Source: an uncultured Clostridia bacterium (lineage in GTDB: Bacteria; Bacillota; Clostridia; Oscillospirales; Acutalibacteraceae). From it: 33,066 bases of DNA. The DNA is taken from positions 1-33,066 of the forward strand of contig CANRMW010000005.1 in the NCBI GenBank assembly GCA_947631835.1, read 5' to 3'. The notes beneath the pieces were generated by a model. That model saw only the letters and a list, made by a program, of their open reading frames with translations. It had not been told where the DNA came from and ran no database searches. A program made the translations under genes and the position numbers. Positions 12,803 to 15,799 of the stretch are shown one piece after another; the first letter of the stretch is position 1, and each line of letters opens with the position of its first letter.

Positions 12803-13357
12803 TCAGGCCTTCAGCGCCGCGCGCGCCGGCACATACAGCACGCCGACGATCACCATGTTGAGCAGCGCGGTGCAGAGCACGATCGGCACATAAGCGACGA
12901 GCGTCTCCGCCGTCGCGTTCGCGAAGAGGAACAGGCAGACGGTATAGAGCCCGCCGGAAACCACCGTCGCGACGAACGTGGAAACGACGGAGGAGAGGTT
13001 CTTCTGCATCGGGATCTTGATCATCAGCGCCATGACGAGCGCGCCGGCGATCTCGGAGATGAAGTTGAGGTACGGCGTGCCGGGGAAGAACTGGCACACG
13101 GCGCCCGCGAGGATGCCGATGATGAGCGCGCGGAGCAGGTCCGGCTTGATGAGCAGGATCGCGAGGCAGTACATCGCAATGATGAAGTTCGGCTTCATGC
13201 CGCCGATGTTGACAACGCTGCCGACGAAGAACTTGAGCACCGCGCCCGCCGCGAGCAGGACCGCCGTGAGAATGAGGTTGCGGATCTCGACCGCCGCGCG
13301 GCTTTCGGCCTTGACTTCGCGCTTTTGAGCCGTTCTGTTGCTGTTTTCGTTTGCCAT
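12803..13357 (-). CDS. trpP: ECF-type tryptophan transporter substrate-binding (S) component, TrpP-like
   Basis: Small polytopic protein (RNLILTAVLLAAGAVLKFFVGSVVNIGGMKPNFIIAMYCLAILLIKP..FFPGTPYLNFISEIAGALVMA) resembling TrpP. Preceded by a T-box with a probable UGG specifier and followed by EcfA/EcfA/EcfT. Confidence 0.85.
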   Translation of the reverse strand: MANENSNRTAQKREVKAESRAAVEIRNLILTAVLLAAGAVLKFFVGSVVNIGGMKPNFIIAMYCLAILLIKPDLLRALIIGILAGAVCQFFPGTPYLNFISEIAGALVMALMIKIPMQKNLSSVVSTFVATVVSGGLYTVCLFLFANATAETLVAYVPIVLCTALLNMVIVGVLYVPARAALKA

Positions 13358-13471: not shown

Positions 13472-13755
13472 AGCCCTTACATGCGCACACGCGCACATAA
13501 GGACAAGAGAAACTCCTGCGGTACCACCTTACTTGATATGCCGTTTCCGACATACCCGCTCTAACGAAAATGCCAACACATTTCCTGCCTTTAACGCCGG
13601 CACGCGTCTCGGCTACTCGTCGCCTTTCGCCTCGCCCTCCGCGGTCCATTTACCGAGTGGCATCTCCGCAGGACTTTCACCACCGCCTGCTCTCTGTGGG
13701 CGCCTGCCCCGGCTTGATCTCCGCATCATCGGTTTGCTTTGTGAACTTGTAAGAC
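13472..13755 (-). promoter_or_regulatory. T-box leader, probable tryptophan specifier (UGG at 13646-13648, minus strand)
   Basis: Minus-strand RNA contains AGAGAGC...GGUGGUGAAAGUCCUGC (Stem I distal motifs), CGGUAAAUGGACCG (specifier loop, UGG followed by A), and AAGGUGGUACCGC (T-box). It ends in terminator CCTTATGTGCGC-gtgt-GCGCATGTAAGG-GCTTTTTT. Confidence 0.92.
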
Positions 13756-13842: not shown

Positions 13843-13871
13843 TGGACTTTGCGGGCGGAGTATGCTATAAT
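13843..13871 (+). promoter_or_regulatory. Sigma-A-like promoter directly upstream of the tandem repeat array
   Basis: TGGACT-17 nt-TATAAT, with TG at the extended -10 (TATGCTATAAT). Confidence 0.7.
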
Positions 13872-13913: not shown

Positions 13914-14704
13914 CGCCGGCTCGCGGGAAACAGAAGCAAATCCACCAAACGAACTCGGTTTCCGGCACGGGGCAAAGCCCGCCGAAAGCACCGGCGAAGT
14001 TCGCGGAGCGAACGACCAACGCGACGAAACAGCCTTCGGCTGCGCGCGGCAGAGCCGCTTTCGTTTGTTCTACGCCGGCTCGCGGGGAACAGAAGCAAAT
14101 CCACCAAACGTAGTCAGTTTATGGCGCGGGACAAAGCCCACCGAAAGCGCCGGCGAAGTTCGCGGAGCAAACGACCGGCGCGACGAAACAGCCTTCGGCT
14201 GCGCGGCGGCAGAGCCGCTTTCGTTTGTTCTACGCCGGCTCGCGGTAAACGGAAGCAAATCCACCAAACGCAGTCCGTTTATGGCACGGGGCAAAGCCCG
14301 CCGAAAGCACCGGCGAAGTTCGCGGAGCGAACGACCGGCGCGACGAAACAGCCTTCGGCTGCGCGGCGGCAGAGCCGCTTTCGTTTGTTCTACGCCGGCT
14401 CGCGGGAAACAGAAGCAAATCCACCAAACGTAGTCAGTTTATGGCGCGGGGCAAAGCCCGCCGAAAGCACCGGAGAAGTTCGCGGAGCGAACGACCAACG
14501 CGACGAATCGGCCTTTGGCCGCGCGCGGGCATAGCCCGCTTCGTTTGCTCTACGCCGGCTCGCGGGAAACAGAAGCAAATCCACCAAACGCAGTCCGTTT
14601 ATGGCGCGGGGCAAAGCCCGCCGAAAGCACCGGCGAAGTTCGCGGAGCGAACGACCGGCGCGACGAAACAGCCTTCGGCTGCGCGACGAATCGGCCTTTG
14701 GCCG
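13914..14704. repeat. Tandem array: five copies of a ~160 bp palindrome-rich unit
   Basis: Unit starts (CGCCGGCTCGCGG) at 13914, 14073, 14233, 14393 and 14553, giving periods of 159, 160, 160 and 160. Shared core: GAAGCAAATCCACCAAACG..GGGGCAAAGCCCGCCGAAAGCACCGGCGAAGTTCGCGGAGCGAACGACC..GCGACGAA. Confidence 0.97.
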
Positions 14705-14722
14705 TGGAAAGGAAGGAGCGGG

Positions 14723-15799
14723 ATGAAAGCCATATTGGAAAAGGGCGCGCGTCTTACGGAACGCGCGTGGAAGCGCCTTGCGGCGGCGGGTCTCGCGCTC
14801 CTGCTCGTCGTGGTCCTCGCCATCGCGCTGTTCCCGCTGCTCGACGGCGGCTCGCCCGCAGAGATCGTCACTTATGCCATGGGCAGCTATGTGCGGCAGA
14901 CGGTCTACGGAAAGAACGGGGAGGAAGCCGCGCGCGAGGCCGCAGGCGCCGTGCAGGCGCTCGACAACGAGATCTCGTGGCGCGCCGTCGGTGGGGACAT
15001 CCAACGGCTGAACGAGCACGCCGGGGACGACTGGATCGAGCTCTCCGAGGAGACGGTCGGCCTCCTCGCCCTCGCGCAGGAGGTCTGCGAAAAGAGCGGC
15101 GGCGCGTTCGACGTCACCGTCGCGCCGCTCACCCACCTCTGGGATTTCGACGACGCGAAAAACGAGGTCCCCTCTGCGGAAAAGATCGCCGACCGGCTGC
15201 AATACGTCGGCGGAAAATTTCTGCGGCTGGACCAAAACGAAAACACCGCCTCCCTTCGAAATACGGGGAACGCCGTGGACCTCGGCGGCCTCGGGAAGGG
15301 CGCCGCCTGCGACGCGGCGTGCGCGGTCTATGAAACGCTCGGCGTGCGCGCGGCGGTGATCGCCGTCGGCGGCAGCATCGGCGTTTACGGCACAAAACCG
15401 GCGGGCGGCCGCTGGAACATCGCCGTGCGCGACCCGAACAGCGACGGCTCCATCGGGACGCTCTCCATTGAGCGCGGGTTCGTCTCCACCTCCGGCAGCT
15501 ACGAAAAATGCTTCGAAAAAGACGGCGTGCTGTACCACCACCTGCTCGACCCGCACACCGGGATGCCCGCGCGCACGGGCCTGCTCTCCGTCACGGTCTG
15601 GAGCGAAAACGGCGCGCTCTCGGATATGCTCTCGACGGCCTGCTTCGTCCTCGGGGAATCGGACGGCGCGGCGCTCCTTGAAACATTTGGCGCGGAGGGC
15701 ATCTTCATCCGCGAGGACGGCGCCGTCGCGGTGACGGACGGCCTTTCGGAGAGCTTCCAGCTCACGGCGGAGGGATACGCCCTCGCCCCGCTCGCATGA
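14723..15799 (+). CDS. apbE: FAD:protein FMN transferase
   Basis: VQALDNEISWRAVGGDIQRLNEHAG, FDVTVAPLTHLWDF, VDLGGLGKGAACD, SGSYEKCFEKDGVLYHHLLDPHTGMPA are ApbE motifs. ATG at 14723 after GGAAGGAG. Confidence 0.93.
   Translation: MKAILEKGARLTERAWKRLAAAGLALLLVVVLAIALFPLLDGGSPAEIVTYAMGSYVRQTVYGKNGEEAAREAAGAVQALDNEISWRAVGGDIQRLNEHAGDDWIELSEETVGLLALAQEVCEKSGGAFDVTVAPLTHLWDFDDAKNEVPSAEKIADRLQYVGGKFLRLDQNENTASLRNTGNAVDLGGLGKGAACDAACAVYETLGVRAAVIAVGGSIGVYGTKPAGGRWNIAVRDPNSDGSIGTLSIERGFVSTSGSYEKCFEKDGVLYHHLLDPHTGMPARTGLLSVTVWSENGALSDMLSTACFVLGESDGAALLETFGAEGIFIREDGAVAVTDGLSESFQLTAEGYALAPLA

Follow-up and report, generated by a model that had tools for sequence, protein, structure and literature searches.

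A mosaic interspersed repeat upstream of apbE in an uncultured gut Clostridia bacterium, with hairpins apparently swapped between copies

Between a promoter-like site and the start codon of apbE, the window (the whole stretch of DNA analysed here, 33,066 nt) carries a tandem array whose units are rich in short hairpins and differ from one another by changes that match on both arms of a stem. What kind of element is this array, and do its matched changes record base pairs compensated one at a time? The locus is laid out as follows.

13843..13871, + strand: promoter-like site, TGGACT-17-TATAAT, with TG before the -10
13914..14685, + strand: tandem array, 160-nt unit, 4.8 copies, 91% matches
13914..14072, + strand: unit 1, with a perfect internal hairpin at 13999-14013
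14073..14232, + strand: unit 2, internal hairpin at 14158-14172 with one mismatch (A at 14169)
14233..14392, + strand: unit 3, hairpins at 14289-14299, 14318-14332, 14349-14361 and 14366-14378
14318..14332, + strand: internal hairpin slot of unit 3, GTTCGC-GGA-GCGAAC, a slot with strong covariation and apparent genome-wide swaps of whole-hairpin alleles
14393..14552, + strand: unit 4, apparently swapped hairpins at 14509-14521 and 14525-14539
14500..14521, + strand: unit 4 block GCGACGAATCGGCCTTTGGCCG, the same sequence as the terminal block of the array
14553..14707, + strand: unit 5, truncated; core up to 14665, slot-3 hairpin at 14669-14681, followed by a second hairpin with the other allele
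14683..14704, + strand: terminal block GCGACGAATCGGCCTTTGGCCG, ending 18 nt 5' of the apbE start codon and adjoining a purine-rich ribosome-binding site
14723..15799, + strand: apbE (ApbE family, FAD:protein FMN transferase; PF02424, E=5.6e-75)

From this arrangement we infer that the array lies in the 5' leader of apbE and is transcribed; a like promoter arrangement stands upstream of apbE in a sister species (TGGACTTTGCGGGAGGTTCGTGCTATAATG, L109). Long open frames cross the array, and we treated them as GC-rich artefacts rather than as protein-coding, because a codon-usage caller trained on this genome put no gene there (gene calls come from this purpose-made caller, not from a published program). 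In an Rfam search of the window, no family reached its gathering score, and assignment to a known RNA family was rejected on that ground. The sole match was a T-box leader beside the array (13496-13738, - strand; 82.1 bits, E 6.8e-18, below the Rfam gathering score of 93), which is accompanied by a perfect TTGACA-17-TATAAT promoter (13784-13756, - strand) upstream of a leftward gene (12803-13357).

A preliminary description presented the units as chains of perfect hairpins. Checked base by base, the six hairpins that it named are all in place: GGGC-AAA-GCCC (14289-14299), GTTCGC-GGA-GCGAAC (14318-14332), CAGCC-TTC-GGCTG (14349-14361) and GCGGC-AGA-GCCGC (14366-14378) in unit 3, CGGCC-TTT-GGCCG (14509-14521) and GCGGGC-ATA-GCCCGC (14525-14539) in unit 4. 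The alternative GCGAA-G-TTCGC pairing is also present (14314-14324). The picture of perfect hairpins holds for those checked in units 1, 3 and 4, but unit 2 breaks two stems, a point that had been overlooked: it reads GTTCGC-GGA-GCAAAC at the internal hairpin (A at 14169) and GGAC-AAA-GCCC where the A at 14131 leaves one pair mismatched. Compared position by position, units 3 and 4 differ at 19 places. Three base pairs are changed on both arms, which accounts for six of these places: A-T to G-C at 14350/14360, as had been reported, C-G to G-C at 14367/14377, and G-C to C-G at 14366/14378. At 14379 a G.T wobble becomes G-C. Of the remainder, two lie in loops, one lies beside a stem (14348) and nine fall outside the named hairpins. 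What had been read as one pair added on both arms is indeed an altered stem, but one altered by two flipped pairs (14366/14378 and 14367/14377) plus the mended wobble (14379). The 22-nt block at 14500-14521 holds the changed slot-3 hairpin of unit 4 together with linked unpaired and loop changes; these linked changes, and the duplication of the block within the window, would fit its replacement in a single step.

Beyond the window, the repeat family is a mosaic. Its core of about 116 nt runs from CTACG(C/T)(C/T)GGC to CGCGACG, and boundary modules stand before or after it: a first module, CGGCC-YYY-GGCCG or CAGCC-YYY-GGCTG; (G)GGC-RNA-GCC(C) followed by TTTCGTTTGCCCTA (R, N and Y being IUPAC base codes); AAAAGT(T)CTTTT; and an A/T-centred hairpin, for example CTTACTTTTC-TTTCAA-GAAAAGTAAG. 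In some arrays the last modules are inverted at the upstream end, and an array can be bracketed by inverted copies of a boundary module (AAAAGACTTTGACG...CGACGCAAAAGTCTTTT). The family also has another core type, more diverged, and some units wholly lack the internal hairpin. Copies are intergenic, often in short tandem arrays, and mostly point to where the next gene begins. In 34.7 kb of array sequence there are 630 perfect hairpins with stems of 5 bp or more, whereas mononucleotide shuffles give 210. Slot 3 is occupied by CGGCC/GGCCG in 50 cases, CAGCC/GGCTG in seven and a mixed form in two. Three further loci or repeats were also encountered: an array of short units that have no internal hairpin and are separated by GGCACCTGCGGTGC-type modules (L193:881-1560; G000:C137, about 1836-2515), whose orthologous stretch (L125) has a different build; another dispersed repeat, akin in style to the inverted boundary modules, with many matches in the window's genome (AAGGTCGCGCCTTTTGAAAAAGGCGCCCGAAAACTTTTGCG; L121:3836-3906); and a lone tail hairpin immediately 5' of a putative tRNA gene in both species (L078:8657 and L128:15138).

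How abundant and how widespread is the family? One unit finds 74 places by BLAST in its own genome (2.05 Mb, 218 contigs), and an iterated HMM gives 108 matches in 42 clusters there (444 kb examined) and 70 matches in 29 clusters in the sister species (920 kb examined), a metagenome-assembled genome (MAG) of an uncultured Clostridia bacterium of the same genus (Lapin-028__bin84). These counts rest on stretches of the genomes and are lower bounds, because several contigs have a copy within a few hundred bases of their start (at L046, L047, L054, L059, L061, L065, L067, L072 and L073, on contigs C24, C47, C36, C57, C86, C43, C62, C80 and C78, respectively). The assembly seems to break at the repeat, and the real copy number is likely higher. 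A covariance model of the core was run on 118 relatives, with five other species of the genus among them, and matched only the window's species and its sister; no copy of the element was found anywhere in those five. The same model matched only the window's genome among 300 genomes sampled from the phylum, and an exact-pattern search of a genome contig database returned only the sister MAG; since these large-scale searches used stricter filters, weak relatives may be missed. Plasmids, phages and viral contigs gave no match to the element, and an origin from a phage or plasmid was rejected for that reason. The idea that the tail hairpin ranges widely was likewise rejected: an exact pattern, whose fixed spacing may overlook variants, had no match in 294 further genomes of the order, and a 60-nt BLAST query had none in eight relatives besides the sister. 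A literature search found no earlier description of this repeat.

Many arrays occupy the same loci in both species, and all resolvable loci other than apbE are filled in both, with differing copy numbers (1 vs 5, 1 vs 3 and 4 vs 2). The sister apbE, 82% identical in amino acids where the two proteins match, has its promoter and no array in front of the gene; therefore, either the array was gained here or the sister lost it. Comparison of the two leaders revealed no clean empty site with a target duplication, and they are too diverged for an insertion point to be placed.

We then come to the covariation. Across 81 copies, standard pairs fill 90.5% of the cells of the internal hairpin, and pairing becomes much poorer when the partners of this hairpin and of the closing stem are slid by 1-3 columns. 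Because the shuffles of the pairing tool ignore relatedness, we let each column evolve independently, in 500 simulations, along a tree from which the hairpin columns had been left out, a simplified version of the R-scape idea that uses a quick tree on about 116 nt with uncertain branches. At the internal hairpin (the GTTCGC-GNA-GCGAAC slot), 63 double-change cells were counted where a mean of 16.9 was expected, a value reached in 0 of the 500 simulations, and both sides had changed on 44 of the 93 changed branches. Covariation is therefore present at the internal hairpin, but no excess of double changes was seen at the closing stem (206/500), at the GGG/YCC stem (202/500) or at the CGCG long-range pairing (500/500), the last being uninformative because its columns (65-69 with 131-134) are near-invariant. 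RNAalifold predicts 13 pairs at -8.84 kcal/mol for the 81 copies, of which the internal hairpin alone survives the tree-based test; one conserved fold for the whole unit was rejected on these results. Covariation thus supports local hairpins and not a global fold. The short hairpins are conserved as pairs, and the excess of paired over unpaired changes upholds the earlier proposal that pairing is maintained.

On the other hand, the same proposal offered selection on structure as one reason for the compensatory changes, and here the alleles found across copies point elsewhere. Between constant flanks, GAAG and CGACC, the internal slot holds unlike perfect hairpins: TTCGC-GNA-GCGAA, TGCGC-GGA-GCGCA, CGGCGG-TTTA-CCGCCG, CGTGTG-NNTA-CACACG, CGCGGG-TTTA-CCCGCG and, with a bulge, CGTCGTGCG-TTTC(A)-CGCACACG, and in the short forms the loop is almost always GNA. 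When the slot is left out of the tree, its allele is seen to have changed at least 24 times, the changes looking like whole-hairpin replacements, and near-identical neighbouring copies differ in the allele they carry. About one-fifth of the copies have GTGAGC-GNA-GCGAAC, with two internal mismatches, and perfect pairing is therefore not essential. Because the slots hold interchangeable perfect hairpins, most of the paired changes look like whole-hairpin replacements between copies. For the events originally cited, selected compensatory substitution is not supported, as both unit 4 forms are common genome-wide alleles (which include CGGCC-YYY-GGCCG, and CGGGC-RNA-GCCCG vs GCGGC-RNA-GCCGC). Judged from these sequences, the matched stem changes look mainly like the outcome of hairpins swapped between copies and not of one-by-one compensating mutations, so that pairing is conserved but the unit of change would mostly be the hairpin rather than the base pair; the preliminary interpretation is in this sense partly supported.

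Placement relative to genes bears on what the element may do. Where a cluster has a downstream gene, 46 of 64 point in the same direction as that gene (p=0.0006, with orthologues counted in both species). In 15 same-direction cases, the terminal A/T hairpin ends 10-17 nt 5' of the start codon, so that little more than a ribosome-binding site fits between, and at nine convergent genes it lies 0-4 nt past the stop codon. The bias toward gene starts and the tight abutment to ribosome-binding sites and stop codons exceed the regularity that neutral insertion predicts and may reflect a selected function. These observations speak for a structured cis-regulatory or stabilizing RNA, in which the hairpin chain would be a selected leader or 3'-end element, protecting the mRNA or tuning translation from its place at the ribosome-binding site or stop codon, and the paired changes would be selected compensations. 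The position of the window's array between promoter and apbE, the near-constant GNA loop of the short internal hairpins and the folding stability of a single unit, which exceeds that of shuffles by more on the + strand (z -2.44, against z -1.29 on the - strand), all agree with it. However, the neighbouring genes are unrelated housekeeping genes (GyrA, OTC, ArgJ, GroES, UvrB, MetRS and ApbE), and a regulon was rejected because the downstream genes share no common function. Presence and copy number also differ between the sister species, a few arrays lie upstream of a promoter instead of in a leader (L053 and L046), only local hairpins covary, and no Rfam family reaches its gathering score in the window. 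We consider this reading unlikely.

A miniature mobile element of the MITE or REP type would have its transposase encoded elsewhere in the genomes and use the hairpins as recognition sites on single-stranded DNA. It is compatible with the explanation that we favour below, to which it adds an active mobilizer, and it is consistent with the dispersed intergenic copies, with the boundary modules sometimes inverted at the two array ends and with the lineage-specific occupancy at apbE. Against it, no target duplication was seen in the diverged apbE leaders, and recent transposition is not obvious because so many arrays are shared by both species at the same loci. The search for a mobilizer covered Y1_Tnp and RVT_1. 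Y1_Tnp (PF01797, RAYT) had 0 matches in the genome, which is 95.7% complete, whereas control genomes including E. coli were positive; a RAYT/Y1 transposase was rejected as the mobilizer. We hold this alternative to be rather improbable. The genome does encode one reverse transcriptase (RVT_1, E 1.8e-14; a 447-aa frame at L182:1183-2526, match at G000:C2:37508-38071), and no repeat cluster was detected in the stretch around it.

We give about the same small chance to a bolder view, that of a novel mosaic repeat whose intact hairpin cassettes are exchanged via single-stranded DNA or template switching, so that covariation would come from cassette exchange and the terminal hairpin, set against ribosome-binding sites or stop codons, would be a portable mRNA-end element. 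Finally, replication-level palindrome correction, in which template switching copies one arm onto the other and keeps hairpins perfect without selection, is a possible account of the one-arm change between GTGAGC-GGA-GCGAAC and GTTCGC-GGA-GCGAAC (two adjacent changes, as predicted, found also between the near-identical copies L062:3565 and L063:1287, at distance 0.08), and template switching able to mend such changes is documented for RNA genes (PMC8794818), but as a general explanation it is very improbable, given that the changes in the window hit both arms, loop and flank together, which one-arm copying would not do, and that loop inversion, its expected footprint at perfect stems, is unseen among internal-slot loops.

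We consider it probable, with some reserve, that this array is a single locus of a mosaic interspersed repeat, lineage-specific and non-autonomous, that is BOX- or BIME-like in kind, whose hairpins are swapped between copies and whose function is a matter of inference. The many copies would exchange whole hairpins by recombination or gene conversion, replication template switching could make or mend a hairpin, and badly paired forms may be removed by selection or by the mechanism itself. In the window's species, the array would have been inserted or expanded inside the apbE 5' leader, 3' of an existing promoter. Once transcribed, it would form a chain of hairpins beside the ribosome-binding site and may alter mRNA stability or translation; because the neighbours are unrelated housekeeping genes, this placement appears generic, and the array would not act as a specific regulator of apbE. 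Covariation tools are usually read as reporting independent compensatory substitutions, and this repeat departs from that reading, offering a clear natural example of a repeat family whose strong stem covariation seems to arise mainly by another route. With about 100 copies in each of two sister species, it is also a resource in which hairpin swapping, template switching and selection can be measured together, and it adds a dispersed mosaic repeat, regularly linked to mRNA ends, in an uncultured Clostridia lineage.

Likened by description to known systems, the element is best read as of the same kind as BOX or BIME. BOX elements of Streptococcus pneumoniae are module mosaics with a variable number of inner modules and about 100 copies per genome, intergenic, with predicted stem-loops, sometimes in transcribed leaders and over-represented between convergent genes (PMC3049150). 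The modular build with a variable number of inner modules is found here too, and the likeness, which concerns build and not boxA/boxB/boxC sequence, extends to copy number, intergenic location and stem-loops; here, in contrast, the tandem unit is of about 160 nt and GC-rich, slot hairpins are replaced by unrelated perfect hairpins, and copies favour pointing at gene starts. BIME/REP (GTAG) elements, associated with RAYT transposases, are extragenic palindromes in mosaic clusters whose palindromy is kept by complementary changes between variants (PMC2817692). Our repeat resembles them in these clusters and in the complementary changes, but the genome has no Y1/RAYT gene, the repeats are direct and of about 160 nt (116-nt core) rather than alternating palindromes of 20-40 nt, and the conserved ends are CTACG... 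and GCGACG, with no GTAG head. CGTC-tagged palindromic repeats are short palindromes without a dedicated transposase, with an 8-9 bp stem and a 4-5 nt loop (PMC3733652); several boundary hairpins here are followed by CGTCG on the - strand, and CGACG/CGTCG junctions are present, but stems are often of 5-7 bp with loops of 2-3 nt, outside that definition. Lastly, the BrickBuilt MITE of Porphyromonas gingivalis, according to the available part of its description (PMC4596501), is species-specific and intergenic, with a 23-nt tandem unit, 19 copies, and leader and tail subunits with inverted ends. The tandem repeats with inverted end subunits, the narrow range and the intergenic location recall our element, in which the hairpins are apparently swappable, a feature that this part of the description does not mention for BrickBuilt.
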